From IMG/VR virus record IMGVR_UViG_3300028194_000337, positions 1-20,146 of that record: DNA of 20,146 nucleotides; one strand, 5' to 3'. The position numbers were made by a program, and so were the translations under genes. The stretch's first letter is position 1; every line of letters starts with the position of its first letter. A model generated the notes under the pieces. It had not been told where the DNA came from. It saw only the letters and a list, made by a program, of their open reading frames with translations, and did no database searches. The DNA comes from a virus. Below, one piece after another: positions 2,163 through 19,539 of this stretch.

Positions 2163-2501
2163 TTAAATTATCACAAACATTCTTTTCACCAAATCCAACG
2201 AATGATGGTATTTGTATTTCCTATTAAACAACATTTTGATATTTGTCTTTCCAGAATGTTTCGTAAAGATTTGCGAAGACTTAATTTGTCTTTGAAACCC
2301 ACCTTTAACGATAACAACGCCGTCTTTGATGTCAGCTGGAAAGATTGGATCGAAACGGATTGACATCACGTCAGCCGTTTCACCAATTACACCTTCAATC
2401 AATCCGATCATTTCTTGTTTGATTTCGCCTTCTTTTAAGTTTGCGACAAAAACAACATCGCCTGGAAGCGGTTTTTGGTTTTTTATGTTAGAATGTATCA
2501 T
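2163..2501 (-). CDS. Hypothetical phage protein, replication/recombination module
   Basis: 112 aa from ATG at 2501. The frame can be extended to a TTG at 2534, but ATG at 2501 gives a 14-nt overlap with the exonuclease gene, like the other junctions here, and was preferred. The N-terminal two-thirds reads as a small beta-barrel-like domain (PLPGDVVFVANLKEGE, then alternating hydrophobic strands with EGVIGETADVMSIRF and GVVIVKGGF). The C-terminus is basic (KTNIKMLFNRKYKYHH). No family was recognised. Its place between the exonuclease and the DnaA-like gene suggests a DNA-metabolism role, but nothing in the sequence proves it. Confidence 0.7.
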   Translation of the reverse strand: MIHSNIKNQKPLPGDVVFVANLKEGEIKQEMIGLIEGVIGETADVMSIRFDPIFPADIKDGVVIVKGGFQRQIKSSQIFTKHSGKTNIKMLFNRKYKYHHSLDLVKRMFVII

Positions 2502-3111
2502 TTGCAATTCCTTCGTTTGTGTTAACTTTTTCAATAAATTTCAACAATTTGTTTTTGAATTCGTTTATTTCGTTGCTCCAATCTTCGCGCGTCACCGTTA
2601 TAATGTGAAGCGGTCGCGCCGTGAATCTTGGATCGTATGAAACAAAATACATCGTTTCAATCGTGTCCACTATTGTAAAATAATGTAAAAGTTGTTGTTT
2701 GTATTCAGCGGGAACGCGGTTTGTTATAATGTATTCAATATGTTTTTTTGAATCTGGACACTTTACTTCAACACCCGCCAACGGATTTTCTTGATCCATG
2801 ATCAAACCGTCGGGCGACAAATGGCAATTCGGAAAGTTTTCGTTTGTTACCATTCCGAAATGTTCAACATCAAGTTCCATGAAGTCGCGAAATTCAGCGA
2901 TTGCGATTGGTTCAAGATCAATTCCCCTTTGCATCGCTTCCGAAACAAATGAATCTTGGATCATTCCCGTCCCACGTTCAGCAATCAATTCATACATTAA
3001 ACTTGTATTTGTAGACGAAACAACTTTTTTCGCCCGTGTTCCTCCAATTGAACCTTGTCTGATTTGAAACCAATCTTCGGTTCTTTGCTCTAAGTTTTTA
3101 TGCAATTTCAT
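2488..3111 (-). CDS. YqaJ/lambda-exonuclease family recombination nuclease
   Basis: A 207-aa PD-(D/E)XK nuclease of the YqaJ/lambda Exo type. Motifs appear in order: RTEDWFQIRQGSIGGT at 10-25 (the usual R...W...R.G.IG.S start), GIDLEP at 63-68 (first acidic residue E67), LSPDG at 98-102 (D101), GVEVKCP at 113-119 (E115 and K117, the ExK pair), and PAEYKQQLLHY at 134-144 with the conserved Gln near 139-140. Length is normal for the family. Such enzymes resect one strand of dsDNA ends so that an annealing protein can pair the exposed single strand, supporting phage recombination and concatemer formation. The start overlaps the end of the 164-aa gene by 14 nt, suggesting coupled translation. No RecT/Erf-type annealing protein is visible in this window. 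Confidence 0.93.
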   Translation of the reverse strand: MKLHKNLEQRTEDWFQIRQGSIGGTRAKKVVSSTNTSLMYELIAERGTGMIQDSFVSEAMQRGIDLEPIAIAEFRDFMELDVEHFGMVTNENFPNCHLSPDGLIMDQENPLAGVEVKCPDSKKHIEYIITNRVPAEYKQQLLHYFTIVDTIETMYFVSYDPRFTARPLHIITVTREDWSNEINEFKNKLLKFIEKVNTNEGIANDTF

Positions 3112-4925: not shown

Positions 4926-5351
4926 TTATTTTATTTGGTAATGTGGACAATCCCGCCATGATGACCAATTTCCGCCCCATGAAATTTTCACGCCTTCCAA
5001 CGCTCCCGCCTCAAGAATAACCGACGCAACTTTGTAAAAAAGAAAATCTTGTTCGATTGATGGCATTTCGTAAAAGTTGATCCCTTTAATGTATGGAATC
5101 ACGTCAATCGCTAAACCGCTTTGATGCTCCGACTTTTTTTCAAACCCGTCGCATTTTGAAACACCATCCGAAAACAAATCGTTTTGTTGATCGGCGGTTC
5201 TTATTCCCCCCATCCAGGGAATAGTCATGTCAATCCCGTCTTTCTTGCGTGACATTATTCGAATCGCGCGAAACAATACCCGAATGATTCGAGGATCAAC
5301 CCCGTCCATTCTTTTGATACTTGTTTGACCCCATTGAAAATTTTTCGACAT
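4926..5351 (-). CDS. Endolysin, M15-family zinc peptidase
   Basis: A 141-aa D-Ala-D-Ala carboxypeptidase-like/L-Ala-D-Glu endopeptidase-type enzyme. Family features: GGIRTADQQ at 48-56 (conserved Arg and Gln), SEHQSGLAID at 74-83 (zinc ligands H76 and D83), and WGGNWSSWRDCPHYQ at 125-139 (catalytic acid D134 and third zinc ligand H137 in the D-x-P-H motif). Length is typical of single-domain phage M15 endolysins. There is no signal peptide or cell-wall-binding domain, so export would depend on a holin. Candidate holin genes flank it on both sides. It would cut peptidoglycan stem peptides at the end of infection; which bond it cuts cannot be told from sequence alone. Confidence 0.93.
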   Translation of the reverse strand: MSKNFQWGQTSIKRMDGVDPRIIRVLFRAIRIMSRKKDGIDMTIPWMGGIRTADQQNDLFSDGVSKCDGFEKKSEHQSGLAIDVIPYIKGINFYEMPSIEQDFLFYKVASVILEAGALEGVKISWGGNWSSWRDCPHYQIK

Positions 5352-13707: not shown

Positions 13708-15421
13708 TAAAAGCTAAGATAATGTTTTTTGTATAAAGTTGCGATATTTTGTATCGAATATTTGCAACTTGATTTTGAAAGTCCCAATCAATCGACAAAA
13801 TTAATCCGTTTTGTCCGCTTGGTGTTGTGAATTCCCTATTCAAAAGTAATGAAGACCAATCAGCATCACAAAACGGAACTTTTTCAGCAATTTTTATAAT
13901 TGATTGATTGTGAATTGTCAAATTTGTCACGGGATCAACAATTTCCGCAAACGATTCGATAAAATGAAATTTGTCCCATAATGTTTCCGCGGTTATTTGA
14001 GTTGTTGACAATTGTTCGTCTGAAATAAAAAGAAATTTATCAACCGTTGTTGTGTCGGATGACAGTTGCATCATTCCAACGCGGTTCGTAATTGTTGGAC
14101 CAAGTTTTGATTTTCTGAAAACATCAACACCAGTTGCGATGTCTTTCATTAATTCTTCATATTTTGTCAATCCGTTTTTTCTGAACGCCCTTGCAAATGG
14201 CGGTCGAATCGATGTCAATCCTTTTCCAAGAATGTTTTTTTTGTTTACGATTGTGATTGGTTCGGAAATTATTTGATAATTGTTCCCTTTGAAATTTTCC
14301 AAAGTGTTTTGGTCCTGGATATCAGTTTGAAACGATATGAAATAATTTTTTACAAATTCGCTTGTGTTATATGTAAATTCAGACAACCTTTTTGTTTGAT
14401 TCGTTTCCACGTCTGGCAAAACATAAGAAGAACTTCCCTTCCAATAATCGCGTCTTTCGAATATGAAAACACCGTTCACAATTTTATAATCAGCATTGAA
14501 AGTTTGGATCATTTGACGAATGAAATCACCAAAGTTATAAATCGATGAATTTATATTTGGATGACCAACACCGTTCGCGCCCCCTCCAATTTTCCCCCTT
14601 TGTGATTTCACGGGTAAAAACGTAGCGTTTGAAAACGGCAAAGATTGAAAAATACTTGATTGAAAAGTTAACCCCAAAGAACCAAGACCGACTTCAAACA
14701 TTCTTTTGAATGTCATTCCGTTATATCTTCGAACTGGCGGAAAGTATTGTTCAATTAAATCTGTAATAACTTGAACCAGCGCAAAAATAACCGCACTAAC
14801 ATAAATAATTTCGGCCGCCAATTTGATCGCGGAAGAAAGTATCAATCCAAATGCGAAACCCGAACCAATTGCGTTGATAAGTTCCCCCGTCCGATAAGCA
14901 ATTGATTTGACCCCATAAATAATTTCCTTTGTCAATAAATACGATGTAATTAACAACGGACCAACAACAAACGCTTCTGGACGAAAATTTAAAACATAAG
15001 GAACAACAACATAGTCGGAAGCAACAATTTCGTTGTTGTTTGCCATCGAACCGAATGAAATCCCGTCCGCGACTTCAGTCAACCAATCAACGCCGTCTTC
15101 CTTTACTATTTCCGCGATGACTTTTTCACAATCAACAAACGAAGCGTCATTTGTCAAGTCAACCATCCCGTTGAAAATAGTTTTTGAATTCAATTTTATT
15201 TTGTACGGAACACCTTCAAAGATTCCAGGACCACCGTTCAAACCTTCCGCAACTTTTTGATTCAATAGTTTCGCGTCTTCCATTGCGAATTCAATTGATG
15301 TCAACGAAATTTCCGATTCCTCTTGACCTTCCCCCGCTTCCCAATTTGCCGACAAAGATAATTCTGGCGCGTTCACGGGTGTTCCAGCTGGTTGCCCGTC
15401 CAATTCAAACGATAAACTCAT
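13694..15421 (-). CDS. Tail protein after tape measure, with internal hydrophobic segments
   Basis: A 575-aa protein whose ATG overlaps the tape measure stop by 4 nt. The place directly after the tape measure is where distal tail or tail hub proteins are found in long-tailed phages. The N-terminal part (1-125) and the C-terminal part (230-575, including VFIFERRDYWKGSSSYVLPD) look soluble and beta-rich. Between them lie strongly hydrophobic segments at about 136-165 (VASDYVVVPYVLNF through VVGPLLITSYLLT) and 184-222 (AIGSGFAFGLILSSAIKLAA and then IIYVSAVIFALVQVITDLI). Membrane-like helices are unusual for a tail hub; they could insert into the host membrane during DNA entry. The hub role is inferred from order, not from a recognised family. 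Confidence 0.75.
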   Translation of the reverse strand: MSLSFELDGQPAGTPVNAPELSLSANWEAGEGQEESEISLTSIEFAMEDAKLLNQKVAEGLNGGPGIFEGVPYKIKLNSKTIFNGMVDLTNDASFVDCEKVIAEIVKEDGVDWLTEVADGISFGSMANNNEIVASDYVVVPYVLNFRPEAFVVGPLLITSYLLTKEIIYGVKSIAYRTGELINAIGSGFAFGLILSSAIKLAAEIIYVSAVIFALVQVITDLIEQYFPPVRRYNGMTFKRMFEVGLGSLGLTFQSSIFQSLPFSNATFLPVKSQRGKIGGGANGVGHPNINSSIYNFGDFIRQMIQTFNADYKIVNGVFIFERRDYWKGSSSYVLPDVETNQTKRLSEFTYNTSEFVKNYFISFQTDIQDQNTLENFKGNNYQIISEPITIVNKKNILGKGLTSIRPPFARAFRKNGLTKYEELMKDIATGVDVFRKSKLGPTITNRVGMMQLSSDTTTVDKFLFISDEQLSTTQITAETLWDKFHFIESFAEIVDPVTNLTIHNQSIIKIAEKVPFCDADWSSLLLNREFTTPSGQNGLILSIDWDFQNQVANIRYKISQLYTKNIILAFNEGE

Positions 15422-18400
15422 ATTCTTTTCTTTTTAACTCGATAACGGTTAATTACTTTTTTATTATTTGATTTCCTTGTGTCAACAAAATCAATGATGT
15501 TGTCGGACAATCTTTGAACGTCAACAACTTGTTCTGGCTTGTTTTGAATCGCTTTCCGTGTTTCTTTCATTTCTTGCAACAATGCACCATCAACGCCCGA
15601 ACTACTTTGAACGACTTGAAGCGCATTGACTTGTGGTTGCATGAAGTTCGATCCGATTGATCCATTGTCAATTGATTTCGTTAATTGGATAAAATTATTC
15701 TTTCCGAATTTGTCCATTGTCGAACCTTTCCAAATCCCTTCGTTTCCTTCAGCTAATATCGGAACACCGAAACCGCGTTTCGCGTGTGATTCGCCACGAA
15801 TTACGCCGTTGTTTATTGAATTACCGTTTTTCGATCCGTTTTGTCCCGCTTTCAATGAATCGTTTATATCCCCATGTTCGCCCGTTCCCGAACCGAATGA
15901 ACTGATCGCGCTTTCAATACCTTGTAAGATGCTGAAATCACGCAACACCGTAATGATCGCGTTCTTGTCGCCCGAAGCGGACGCGGAAGAATATGCGTTG
16001 TAAAGTGCTTGAACTTTGTCAAGTGCAATTTGTTTCTTTTGCGCTTTGATCTTTTTTTGCTCCAATTCAGCCAACGCCGATTCTTCAAACGCCAAATTGT
16101 TTGACAATCCTTCTTGCGCTCTTTGTTCTTGCGTGTCAATGATTGAAAGTTGTTTCGCTTCCAATTTGTCCAATTCATCAATTTGTTTGTCAAGGTTTCT
16201 TTGGAATGAATTGAAGATTGCTTCGGCGGTTTTGTCTTGAATGTCTTTTATTTTTTGCGCTTTGTCTTTTTCAATGTCAACTTCCTTTTGCGCTCTCAAT
16301 CTTTCAACTTCAAGTTCTTCGTCAATTGATTTGATTTTTGATTGTTTTCGCAATAAAACTTCAGCATCAAGTTGTTCGATTTTCAACTTTTTTAATTTTT
16401 CGTTGATTTCTTTTTGTGTTTCACCAGCCAACAATAATTCTAGTTCCTTTTTTTTGTATGCTAATTCTTGCGAACGAATAAATGCGTCAAGTTCAACTTG
16501 TTTCCTTTTTTTGTCCGCGTCTTCTTCAATTAATTTAATTGATTCATTTAATTTTTTGAATTGTTCAGACTTTTGCGAAAACTTTTTCTTTTCAATTTCA
16601 ATTGATTCAATCGCGCGTTTTTCCTCCAATCGAATTGATTCAAGTTCGCGATCACGTTCCGAAATAAAACTTTCCGCTTTCAAATCTTCCAATTGCTGAA
16701 TGATTTGTTTTCCAATTTCAAAATGTTCTTGTTCCAAATCAATTGACGCTTGATCAAGATCACGTTCTTGCGTTCTGGCTTCCCGAACAACCTCCAACAA
16801 ACGACCTTCCAAAATTTCGGACAATTCATATCCACGAATTTTTTCATTCAACAATTTCGAATCGCTTGTTGCAATCAAATCGTTCACATCAATTTGAGTT
16901 TTTGAAACCTTGTTTATTTCTGAAATTTCTTCAGCCAATATCTTTTTTCGAAGTTCTTCCGTTTCTTTCAATAATTTTTTTCGTTCGTCAAATCTTAATT
17001 TGTCACTTGCAATCAATTGTTCGTTGATCGTCTTTTGATTGTCAAACCCATCAATCAAAATGTCAAGATTCTTTTCGATTTCGTCTTGTTCCAATTGTCT
17101 TCGAACCTTTGAAAGTTTAAGCGATTTGATTTGCGATTGTTTTTTTGCCAATAAAACTTCTTTTTCGGCTTCAAGTCTTTGAATTTTTTCATCCGTTGTC
17201 AATTGTCTTTGACTTTCCGCAATTTTCAATTCTTCGTTGACCGCTTTCAAATTGTTTTCGGCAATTTGTTGTGATATTTTCGACGCTTTTTGTTGTGCGT
17301 CAATACTTGTCAAAATCGCCTTTGTTCTTTCCTCAAATGATCGCGTCGCGTCCCCTTCGATTTCTTCAGCCTTTTCGCTGATTGCAAGTTGTTTTTCTAA
17401 TTCAACCGACAATTCCGCGTTTTCAAGTTTTATTTGATTAAGTACTTTCGACAACGCCATTGCCTTTTTTACCGCTTCATCAATCGCAAATCCTAAACCT
17501 AAAAATGTTTTTGTGAATTGCTTTGTCGCTTCAAGGCTATCTTCTGAAATAGATTTGTTTAATGTTTTTATTTTTCCTTCAATTGTTTCAATTGATTCTG
17601 GAATTTTTCCAAATTCTTCATTCACGCCAGGAATCAAATTTTTCATTTCTATAAACAACTTTTGAATGTTTAATTTGAATTTGTCAAACTTTAATCCAAG
17701 AAGCGTGAATTTGTCAGCCAACACCGAAAAGATGTTTCCCAAACCTTTACCAAAAGTAATCAAACGACCAACAACAACTTCCATGATCGCACCGAATGAA
17801 CGAATAGCACCGTCAAGACCATTCAACCCCGCTTGTGTTTTTGTTAGTGTTGCCAATAATGTACCAAGCAAAAGAACAATGATTCCAATTCCAGACGCTA
17901 ACAATCCAGCCTTCAAAACTTTCATTGCTTTCGCCGTTACAAGTGTTGCTTTGCTAAACAATCTTTGTGTAAAAGTTGCTTTTTTCGTGACCTTATCTTG
18001 AACCTCCGTTGCAACCGTTTCCGCTTGAACGCTATCTTTCAACTTGTCTTGCGCCTTTCGAAGTAATTGAATTATAGTGGTTAATTTTCCCATAACTCCA
18101 CCCAACGCGCCCGAAGTGTCAATTGCTCCAACCATTGATTCTGTAAACGCGCCCGTTTCTTCCAATGCTTCTTTGACTTGATCTTTGTAGTTTCCGACCG
18201 ATCTTTGTGTTTGTCCAACTGATTTGTCAACGGCTTTCAACTTTGTGTCCAATTCCGTGACGCTTAAAAGTAATTTTCGCGCTTCCTCCGAATTTTCTTT
18301 TCCCGCAACCGCTAAATCTTTATATTTTTTTCTTAAACTATTTAGAATTTTTGATTGCTTTTCATATTCCCCCGTCAATCCTTTGTTTCCTTTTGCTTGA

Positions 18401-18807
18401 TCTTTCAACGCTTTTTGTTGTTCGCGAATTTCAAGTTTCAATTCTTCGTTTGACAAGGCTTGATCGTCTGTCAATTCGATCAATTTCTTTTTCAATGTTT
18501 GTTCTTGCTTTGCCAATTTCAACGCTTGTTTCTTTTGCGCGTTCATTTCGCCTTCAGACGTTTTCAAATCTTCGTTCGCTTTCAAAAGTTTTTCAAGTTG
18601 CTTTTCCAACTTTTCCAATTCCTTTTCTTGATTGTCCGTTGCGTCCGTTGAATCTTCCGTTGCTTTTTTTGTTTTTGCAATTTCTTTTTGAAACGTCTTT
18701 TGTGATGCAAGAAATGTTTTTTCAAGCAATTTAATTTTTTTGATCAGCTGATCAATTGCGCCGTCGTCAATTACTAAATCGGAATATTTGATTGGATTAT
18801 CTGCCAT
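15418..18807 (-). CDS. Tail tape measure protein
   Basis: The longest gene in the window (1129 aa). It has long coiled-coil regions rich in Lys, Glu, Gln and Leu (about 18-185 and 460-940), a conserved-looking segment around 192-225 (AVDKSVGQTQRSVGNYKDQV), and hydrophobic segments at about 297-321 (VLKAGLLASGIGIIVLLLGT) and 335-356. Near the C-terminus, 1001-1025 reads GVIRGESHAKRGFGVPILAE, a form of the 'G.SHA.GG....EG.E' motif common in phage tape measures; the end is basic. Such proteins set tail length and take part in DNA delivery through the host membrane. At about 0.15 nm per residue, the tail would be roughly 170 nm. It lies directly after the chaperone genes, the usual order. Confidence 0.95.
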   Translation of the reverse strand: MADNPIKYSDLVIDDGAIDQLIKKIKLLEKTFLASQKTFQKEIAKTKKATEDSTDATDNQEKELEKLEKQLEKLLKANEDLKTSEGEMNAQKKQALKLAKQEQTLKKKLIELTDDQALSNEELKLEIREQQKALKDQAKGNKGLTGEYEKQSKILNSLRKKYKDLAVAGKENSEEARKLLLSVTELDTKLKAVDKSVGQTQRSVGNYKDQVKEALEETGAFTESMVGAIDTSGALGGVMGKLTTIIQLLRKAQDKLKDSVQAETVATEVQDKVTKKATFTQRLFSKATLVTAKAMKVLKAGLLASGIGIIVLLLGTLLATLTKTQAGLNGLDGAIRSFGAIMEVVVGRLITFGKGLGNIFSVLADKFTLLGLKFDKFKLNIQKLFIEMKNLIPGVNEEFGKIPESIETIEGKIKTLNKSISEDSLEATKQFTKTFLGLGFAIDEAVKKAMALSKVLNQIKLENAELSVELEKQLAISEKAEEIEGDATRSFEERTKAILTSIDAQQKASKISQQIAENNLKAVNEELKIAESQRQLTTDEKIQRLEAEKEVLLAKKQSQIKSLKLSKVRRQLEQDEIEKNLDILIDGFDNQKTINEQLIASDKLRFDERKKLLKETEELRKKILAEEISEINKVSKTQIDVNDLIATSDSKLLNEKIRGYELSEILEGRLLEVVREARTQERDLDQASIDLEQEHFEIGKQIIQQLEDLKAESFISERDRELESIRLEEKRAIESIEIEKKKFSQKSEQFKKLNESIKLIEEDADKKRKQVELDAFIRSQELAYKKKELELLLAGETQKEINEKLKKLKIEQLDAEVLLRKQSKIKSIDEELEVERLRAQKEVDIEKDKAQKIKDIQDKTAEAIFNSFQRNLDKQIDELDKLEAKQLSIIDTQEQRAQEGLSNNLAFEESALAELEQKKIKAQKKQIALDKVQALYNAYSSASASGDKNAIITVLRDFSILQGIESAISSFGSGTGEHGDINDSLKAGQNGSKNGNSINNGVIRGESHAKRGFGVPILAEGNEGIWKGSTMDKFGKNNFIQLTKSIDNGSIGSNFMQPQVNALQVVQSSSGVDGALLQEMKETRKAIQNKPEQVVDVQRLSDNIIDFVDTRKSNNKKVINRYRVKKKRI

Positions 18808-19539
18808 TATTGTTTTTGTTAACTAATTCAATTAAAACATAAACTTCTTTCACGGTCATTCGTTTAACATCGCGACCATTTGCATTTGCGCTTAAACTAT
18901 GACATAGTTCTTCAAATGCTTTGTCAAATTCGATTTCGTAACTTCCCGACCCATTGAAAGATTTCGGCTTAACCAACGACAACAAATATCTTTCGATATT
19001 GTCCGCAATCTTGTTATCTTCACCAGACAACAACTGATCGCATAATGCTAAAATACGGTTTTTTCGTTGAATAAAGATATTTTTGCGATCCAAACCGTTG
19101 AACTTTACGGGAAAAAACATTTCAAGTTCAAATTCTAGTTTTTTTTTACCTCGTCCGTTTTCGTGTAAACTATTGATTTCGTCAAGTCCCATTCAGACAA
19201 TTGGTCCAAGATAAACCGCAAATTTTCGTTTGAATAGTCCGTGATTAGTTCCCCATCAATCCGACGGATCAATGAAGCGAAGGCAAACCCGCGCAAATTG
19301 TTTTCGGTTTGTGCGTTGTGAACCATATTTCGTAAATTATATAATTCATTCAACGCTTCGTCAATCATTTCTTTTGACAAAAAGTTGTGAATCTTTACGG
19401 TCTTTTGATCGAAATCGGCAATTGTTGAACCAAGTTCCGCATCCAGCATAATATATTTATTGAATGCGTTGAAGCGGTTGAATGGCAAATCGTCAATCGA
19501 TTCGAATAATTCAATTTTGTGTTTTCCTAGTTTAAGCAT
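18797..19539 (-). CDS. Tail assembly chaperone fusion (G-T type) made by -1 ribosomal frameshift
   Basis: Joining the 134-aa upstream frame (19539-19138) with the downstream frame by one base back (re-reading 19138, then on to 18797) gives a 247-aa fusion. Its layout matches the lambda G/GT chaperone pair: two overlapping frames, the second at -1, placed directly before the tape measure gene. The second frame would supply the C-terminal part that binds tail tube or tape measure (LEFELEMFFPVKFNGLDRKN, then a helical YLLSLVKPKSFNG region). The second frame has an ATG at 19192, which would allow a separate 131-aa product, but that ATG lies deep inside the first gene. The second frame overlaps the tape measure start by 11 nt. 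Confidence 0.75.
19124..19148 (-). promoter_or_regulatory. Programmed -1 frameshift signal (A AAA AAC)
   Basis: On the minus strand the first gene reads GTA AAA AAA AAC TAG, so the heptamer A AAA AAC (19144-19138) is in the correct frame for -1 slippage and sits just before the stop at 19137-19135. Nine As occur in a row. Six bases after the heptamer begins a stem, TTGAACTT (19131-19124), whose perfect complement AAGTTCAA is at 19105-19098 with an 18-nt loop. The spacing suits a stimulatory hairpin; the stem is AT-rich and so may be weak. Confidence 0.8.
19135..19539 (-). CDS. Tail assembly chaperone, short form (G-type)
   Basis: A 134-aa mostly helical soluble protein starting MLKLGKHKIELFESIDDLPF and ending DEVKKN at the slippery site. 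The pattern of a short beta start, then 'LPFNRFNAFNKYIMLDAELG' and helical segments (MIDEALNELYNLRNMVHNAQ) is like small phage tail chaperones. It overlaps the membrane protein gene by 13 nt. Without frameshifting, ribosomes stop here and make this short form in excess; with it, the longer fusion is made. The identification rests on position before the tape measure and on the frameshift signal rather than on sequence family. Confidence 0.8.
   Translation of the reverse strand: MLKLGKHKIELFESIDDLPFNRFNAFNKYIMLDAELGSTIADFDQKTVKIHNFLSKEMIDEALNELYNLRNMVHNAQTENNLRGFAFASLIRRIDGELITDYSNENLRFILDQLSEWDLTKSIVYTKTDEVKKN

Follow-up and report, generated by a model that had tools for sequence, protein, structure and literature searches.

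Among the closest described systems is that of phage lambda, in which a ribosomal shift between two overlapping frames yields gpG and gpGT at about 30:1, a ratio crucial for tail assembly (PMC5009743; this and the other papers are cited from the portions of their text available to us). A second is dnaX, which in Thermus undergoes transcriptional slippage at nine A's within one ORF and which also occurs as two-ORF genes with A-runs, including those of Chlorobium and Chloroherpeton (PMC5009743, PMC3711429). In a Roseiflexus insertion sequence (IS) transposase gene, slippage is mediated by a nascent stem-loop at the motif U5C5, with the loss of a C (PMC5009743). Transcriptional slippage has been proposed, without detail, for the tape measure protein of an Acinetobacter prophage (PMC6095929), and the available portion of PMC10885494 deals with ribosomal shifts only. 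In Flavobacterium phage 1/32 (KJ018210) the depositors annotate a short and a joined tail assembly chaperone, F132_37 and F132_38, at a run of ten A's (A10) with a -1 shift; this is annotation only, in a feature table that carries no note on the run or on a hairpin. A literature search that was for the most part limited to papers outside subscription journals found no publication describing the slippage reported here by its title or the start of its abstract, and none plainly on phage 1/32; nor is it described in the available portions of PMC5009743, PMC3711429, PMC8008677, PMC6095929, PMC10885494 and PMC7660901.

The locus considered here lies on the minus strand of a 20,146-nucleotide viral stretch (IMG/VR record IMGVR_UViG_3300028194_000337), the whole of which we call the window. 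A first-pass annotation, made from the letters alone, had proposed a programmed -1 frameshift joining two tail chaperone frames. The finding is real, but it differs from that proposal: the pair is a member of a family built around an A-run, whose frame is free to flip, and not an orphan -1 pair. As with lambda gpG/gpGT, short and long nested frames lie upstream of the tape measure gene, and the shift is -1 in the window and in 17 other split loci; unlike lambda, most of the relatives found have one open frame, the conserved element is mostly a run of 9-11 A's, and in the main clade of the family a hairpin abuts the run on its 5' side. The likeness to dnaX lies in an A-run of 9-10, a long form encoded in one ORF, stop codons close to the run in the two remaining frames, and the occurrence of one-ORF and two-ORF arrangements of the same gene, whereas dnaX is a cellular DNA polymerase gene and this is a phage tail gene whose frame has flipped repeatedly and which in one clade has a hairpin at the run. 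A stem-loop directly 5' of the slippage motif recalls the Roseiflexus element, in the main clade only, although the motif here is A9-A11 and not U5C5.

The gene pair and its family

The minus strand of the window reads ...GAC GAG GTA AAA AAA AAC TAG AAT TTG AAC TTG..., and two near-copies, L001 (99% identical) and L002, likewise read A9 C TAG. The frame relation given in the first-pass annotation, with A AAA AAC in phase for -1 slippage and 113 downstream codons in the -1 frame, was confirmed on this strand (Table 1). Its two predicted products, of 134 aa from the zero frame and 247 aa via the -1 frame, stand as regards reading frames, lengths and position upstream of the tape measure gene, while their production is something that these frames suggest.

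Table 1. Positions of the features of the locus in the window
Feature	Position	Strand	Basis or remark
ORF1, N-terminal domain and predicted short form, 134 aa, ending VKKN and stop	19135..19539	-	phrog_8914 positions 4-135, E 1.1e-37
A9 run, putative slippage site; heptamers A AAA AAA and A AAA AAC in phase	19139..19147	-	
Heptamer A AAA AAC	19144-19138	-	direct reading
Zero-frame TAG, 1 base past the A9 run	19135..19137	-	direct reading
C-terminal domain, -1 frame, 113 codons from CTA (19138) and stop	18797..19138	-	phrog_8914 positions 134-246, E 9.7e-17
Stem of the first-pass annotation, arms TTGAACTT (19131-19124) and AAGTTCAA (19105-19098)	19098..19131	-	one element of a predicted three-way fold
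Start codon ATG of the mechanical ORF2, not accepted as a start in its own right	19190..19192	-	C-frame closed before the run in L001
Tape-measure-like gene, 1,129 aa, directly downstream of the C-half	15418..18807	-	profile matches

The pair had been described as having no recognised family and as a possible undescribed lineage, which does not hold, as the profile phrog_8914 (250 positions) matches both halves and spans them, joined at the A-run. PHROGs labels this profile 'head and packaging, virion structural protein', a label that is probably wrong, since gene order suggests a tail chaperone instead. The 1,129-aa product of the next gene matches phrog_20660 (tail length tape measure protein, E 3.4e-19) and phrog_14476 (virion structural protein, E 3.7e-38), 9 of the 20 named-phage records examined carry a tape measure annotation on the next gene, and several relatives' records carry the depositors' annotation tail assembly chaperone. 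In phage B124-14 (L021, 1905-3369) the gene in the tape-measure place is annotated 'putative DNA segregation protein'. The chaperone role that we infer for the family rests on gene order, on the two-form design and on depositors' labels.

Pfam gave no match for either half in the window and weak, scattered matches for 24 relatives, and NCBIfam held nothing of note for the family. A predicted structure of a fused relative, L027, whose protein is 100% identical to that of phage P2559Y, has a mean pLDDT of 87.7 and places KKK 132-134 in the middle of a predicted helix (121-142). Searched against the PDB, it gave low-weight helical matches, with no convincing match and no solved tail chaperone among the matches listed; in viral Foldseek three unnamed viral models matched well (E <= 0.001), while named chaperones matched weakly (E 0.12 and above). 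Among the relatives compared, the conserved residues of the C-half start at the A-run.

Elsewhere in the window, positions 2-1477 encode a protein whose frame is still open where the contig ends and which has a BT4734-like N-terminal domain, a PriCT-1 match below threshold and a primase/helicase PHROG match; positions 2488-3111 presumably encode a YqaJ-like nuclease and 4926-5351 what we take, by eye, to be an M15-type peptidase (endolysin).

A conserved run of A's in a frame that flips

With the first half as query, tblastn returned 77 phage records, and with the second 45; 76 of the 77 first-half records bear the names of Bacteroidota genera, and by the hosts of its relatives the phage of the window has a Bacteroidota host. 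In all 20 named-phage records examined, an A-run of 8-11 stands at the corresponding site; 18 have a single open frame of 246-258 aa, and the other two are phage 1/32 (split at -1, A10) and P2559S (split at +1, A8). Adding the window and what was retrieved by scanning viral contigs and genomes gave 150 distinct loci among the matches listed, deduplicated on the site and its 150-nt flanks. The 'window's clade' (Flavobacterium-type, 23 representatives) and the 'main clade' were both defined from a tree, L203 being placed in the former by similarity.

An unbroken run of 8-11 A's stands at the junction in 149 of these 150 loci, the exception, L196, being a distant prophage member that has neither the run nor KKK. 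The length is 10 or 11 in 129 of the 149 and 9-11 in 148, with a single A8. Because the seed of one set of scans contained KKK, ranking was by a fused query and the lists held the best matches only (the best 80 of 121 loci in one scan), the numbers of fused and split loci that follow are not population frequencies: a single open frame giving the long protein in 130 (A9 in 10, A10 in 111, A11 in 9), a split at -1 in 18 including the window (A9 and A10 in nine each) and a split at +1 in one (A8). The run itself was not forced by the search, because a scan seeded with the N-domain peptide only still returned a run of at least nine A's in 80 of 80 (the best 80 of 118 loci; 67 fused and 13 split, 47 of the 80 being distinct and new). 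Two groups stand outside these counts: phage BF8P1, which is not among the 149, and L195/L197, a prophage in G291 that the HMM step passed over owing to its storage on the opposite strand, that is not among the 150 and in which, from a reading of two translations, the run is A10 and the second half lies in the -1 frame.

Codon choice at the run is strict. In 66 non-redundant fused ORFs all 198 lysine codons of the run are AAA, whereas the other lysines use AAA at 802 of 1,393 positions, and KKK elsewhere in the same ORFs is encoded by AAAAAAAAA in one of five instances. The run codons of the long frame are AAAAAAAAA in 147 of the 149 loci, the others being TAAAAAAAA and CAAAAAAAA. In the 633,514 bases around the 149 loci, the window included, the coding strand holds no second run of ten or more A's, 50 runs of A8 and six of A9. 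The A-run at the junction is beyond chance. An alignment of related phages had been proposed as a check on whether heptamer and frame relation are kept: the run is kept, and so is the -1 relation in 18 of the 19 split loci, but the 130 fused loci have no split to bridge. Likewise, of the programmed -1 frameshift first proposed, the nested frames with -1 as the long frame stand, but what is conserved is the homopolymer, and no -1 heptamer followed by a 3' stem. The element under selection in the family is thus likely to be the homopolymer rather than a fixed frame, which we regard as part of the best explanation set out below.

The frame has changed repeatedly. On a maximum-likelihood tree of 119 proteins from 147 loci, obtained by a quick search that left 42 of 116 inner branches open, the fused or split label requires at least nine changes, eight of which are forced by well-supported branches alone. 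The fused L121 (A11) and the split L131 (A10) differ by one A and share 81% of their amino acids. Among cultured phages, BF8P1 (A11) and VA7 (A10) are 95.3% identical over 1,652 nt with a single gap, which is either a natural frame flip or else an assembly error. The BF8P1 locus (L206, OP172661; run at 815-825, +1) has a zero frame of only 152 aa, and its C-half is annotated as a separate gene. P2559S (A8, +1) does not agree with its 96% relative L194 (A9, -1), and its A8 may be a miscount; it was counted as +1 anyway. Random miscounting is not the general cause of such differences, because the run length is kept among close records: 27 of 29 records of F. psychrophilum phages, some of them RefSeq duplicates or sub-isolates, show no difference across 251 nt, the A11 run among them, and 16 of 17 records of B40-8-type phages align without length change.

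Stops in the other frames add to this picture. A Thermus dnaX-type gene is marked by a homopolymer of at least nine A's or T's with stops near it, and the window has A9 with a TAG one nucleotide past the run. Of 95 fused representatives, 61% have a stop in each of the other two frames within 12 nt of the run, against 34 +/- 4% after synonymous recoding (0 of 400 recodings), with the +1-frame stops enriched (81% against 63%) and the -1-frame stops alone not enriched (64% against 59%). In a strict set of 39 the signal from both frames is weaker (46% against 33 +/- 6%, 6 of 300), and 16 split representatives have no clear excess of quick stops. By analogy with Thermus dnaX, quick stops in both frames would fit slippage in two directions that ends in a short protein.

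Structures on either side of the run

In the main clade the A-run mostly adjoins a terminator-like hairpin. Identity of synonymous codons between relatives, about 0.51 overall, rises to 0.63-0.95 in the seven codons that immediately precede the run, since in the main clade a stem ends there, for example GACCGC...GCGGTC followed by A10, with bases that differ between lineages; high values also occur away from the run (N107 0.73, N114 0.74, N123 0.84). For 85 fused representatives of the main clade, the 24-nt window ending at the run has a mean MFE of -8.18 kcal/mol, against -3.43 +/- 0.26 kcal/mol after synonymous recoding (z -18.1), while 20 other offsets of this 24-nt window gave z between -3.8 and 2.2. 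With a strict set of 36 loci, less than 60% identical and recoded with per-locus codon usage, z was -11.3 (0 of 200) and 21 of the 36 were individually at p <= 0.05. A stem of at least 6 bp within 3 nt of the run is found in 64 of 75 main-clade A10 fused representatives, against 19% of 5,280 control places; the figures at the run are four of nine for A9 and none of one for A11 main-clade fused representatives. The split main-clade loci L111, L013 and L194 have a 6-bp stem at the run too, and all representatives with a stem of at least 6 bp hold 53 different stems between them. For the stem of the commonest span, taken from the 76 distinct sequences among 88 representatives, the share of cells that pair is 68.6% and drops to 26-40% when the span is slid by 1-3; cells changed on both sides have no excess over the slid versions (44 against 43, 27 and 37), so that the case for the hairpin rests on pairing and energy. 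A terminator function for hairpin and run was rejected by reasoning, as the run on the coding strand is of A and not U, and on the other strand the run is on the wrong side. The window's clade has no clear 5' hairpin (z -2.3; a stem of at least 6 bp in 5 of 23 representatives), and the window itself has no Roseiflexus-type 5' stem, the best near the run being of 4 bp with one G-C pair.

On the 3' side, the perfect 8-bp stem starting 6 nt after the heptamer is present in the window as first described. It is not supported as a conserved stimulator, being found only in the window and its near-copies L001 and L002, which are letter-identical to the window there and hence provide no independent test of the shared fold, and being absent from the next relatives, L114 and L115. 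The 100-nt 3' fold of the window has z -1.68, with 9 of 200 shuffles folding as well, and its stem is probably not a conserved element. The small pseudoknot suggested between CCG in the loop and CGG just after the stem is geometrically implausible by the rules for H-type knots, as it would leave a 0-nt loop across an 8-bp stem, and the CGG pairs elsewhere in the predicted fold. Neither clade has an excess of 3' structure within 130 nt of the run under a null with per-locus codon usage. A main-clade excess 36-108 nt past the run (z to -8), seen with pooled codon usage, was gone with per-locus codon usage. In the window's clade a local excess of RNA structure lies 144-168 nt 3' of the run (z -3.1 to -5.1).

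Which enzyme may slip, and what it would mean

The explanation that we consider likely is a single gene in which slippage on the A-run would give short and long forms. On this reading the window carries one phrog_8914 tail-assembly-chaperone-like gene with a putative nine-A slippage run where its halves meet; accurate transcription and translation would give the 134-aa form, and a net realignment by one base, whether by an A added to the mRNA or by a -1 shift of the ribosome, the 247-aa form. In fused members the open frame would give the long form, and slippage into either other frame the short one. That both proteins are made, and which enzyme slips, is inferred from sequence. In the main clade a nascent-RNA hairpin ends at the run, and the most likely mechanism is that RNA polymerase slips, as in Thermus dnaX and the Roseiflexus element, whereas in the window's clade, mostly without the hairpin, a bare run may serve with either enzyme. 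The RNA:DNA hybrid within RNA polymerase is 9-10 bp long, so that a stem ending where a run of 9-11 nt starts fits this enzyme. Because the stem adjoins the run and no excess of 3' structure lies within 130 nt, transcriptional slippage is favoured for the main clade with fair confidence. For the window, with A9, no 5' hairpin and a private 3' fold of modest strength, we rate ribosomal -1 shifting and polymerase slippage as about equally likely.

A ribosomal shift throughout the family, with fused relatives shifting in the same way in reverse, as in E. coli dnaX, is possible but the less probable reading; for the window alone, where the enzyme is left open, it overlaps with the single-gene explanation. 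The in-phase heptamers of the window and the 3' stem that it shares with L001 and L002, spaced 6 nt from the heptamer, favour it, as do the 18 of 19 split loci at -1, which a directional shift predicts, and split locus L124, whose zero frame reads A AAA AAG. Against this, the 3' fold of the window is absent from L114 and L115 and not above chance, neither clade has 3' structure in excess near the run under the per-locus null, and the +1-frame stops are enriched in fused members. A ribosomal A AAA AAG site would also permit AAG as the third lysine codon of fused members, yet the long frame never reads AAA AAA AAG at the run (0 of 149). A stem whose end lies 0-3 nt upstream of the run would sit within the decoding ribosome, which when placed on the run is expected to cover the stem and melt it, although upstream hairpins have been discussed as modulators of ribosomal shifting (available portion of PMC10885494).

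We consider it improbable that the run is a hot spot of replication slippage by which each phage makes only one form, a phase variation at the DNA level. The differences in run length between BF8P1 and VA7 and between L121 and L131 are what it would lead one to expect, but the constancy among F. psychrophilum and B40-8-type records is not; phase variation has no need of an abutting hairpin or of quick stops in both frames, and a chaperone is not its usual target.

It is very unlikely that the locus holds two genes, with translation of the second beginning at 19192 or within the C-half. Both the window and L002 have the 19192 ATG in frame, and start codons occur within the C-half in all 19 split loci, 5-105 nt past the run (an ATG at 18 nt in the window). 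Independent initiation at 19192, named in the first-pass annotation as the alternative, meets stops between this codon and the run in L001, one of 16 of the 19 split loci without a start in an open C-frame before the run, a comparison that bears on starts ahead of the run and not on those past it; moreover, 130 of the 149 relatives have one ORF, and the conserved C-half residues begin at the run. Least credible is an assembly or sequencing error that lost a tenth A from a truly fused gene, which the homopolymer and the mismatch of P2559S with L194 might suggest, since the window, L001 and L002 agree on A9 C TAG, L114, L115 and other split loci are consistent with them, and the split state recurs in separate lineages.

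Returning to slippage on the A-run of a single gene, we lean, by a little more than even chances, towards a widespread group of Bacteroidota phages setting the ratio of short to long chaperone at transcription, by means of a terminator-like hairpin and a run that fills the hybrid, with a mixed pool of mRNA in each clonal phage and with frame flips tolerated. We know of no earlier tail-assembly gene run by hairpin-driven transcriptional slippage; if true, this would be the first such gene, and the classical ribosomal shift would be one of two solutions. Faithful expression would yield the short form in certain phages but the long one in their close relatives, a natural test of whether the ratio is kept or free. 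One-ORF annotations in phages of Bacteroides and Flavobacterium may conceal a second product, and a pair annotated as two genes, as in BF8P1, may be one.
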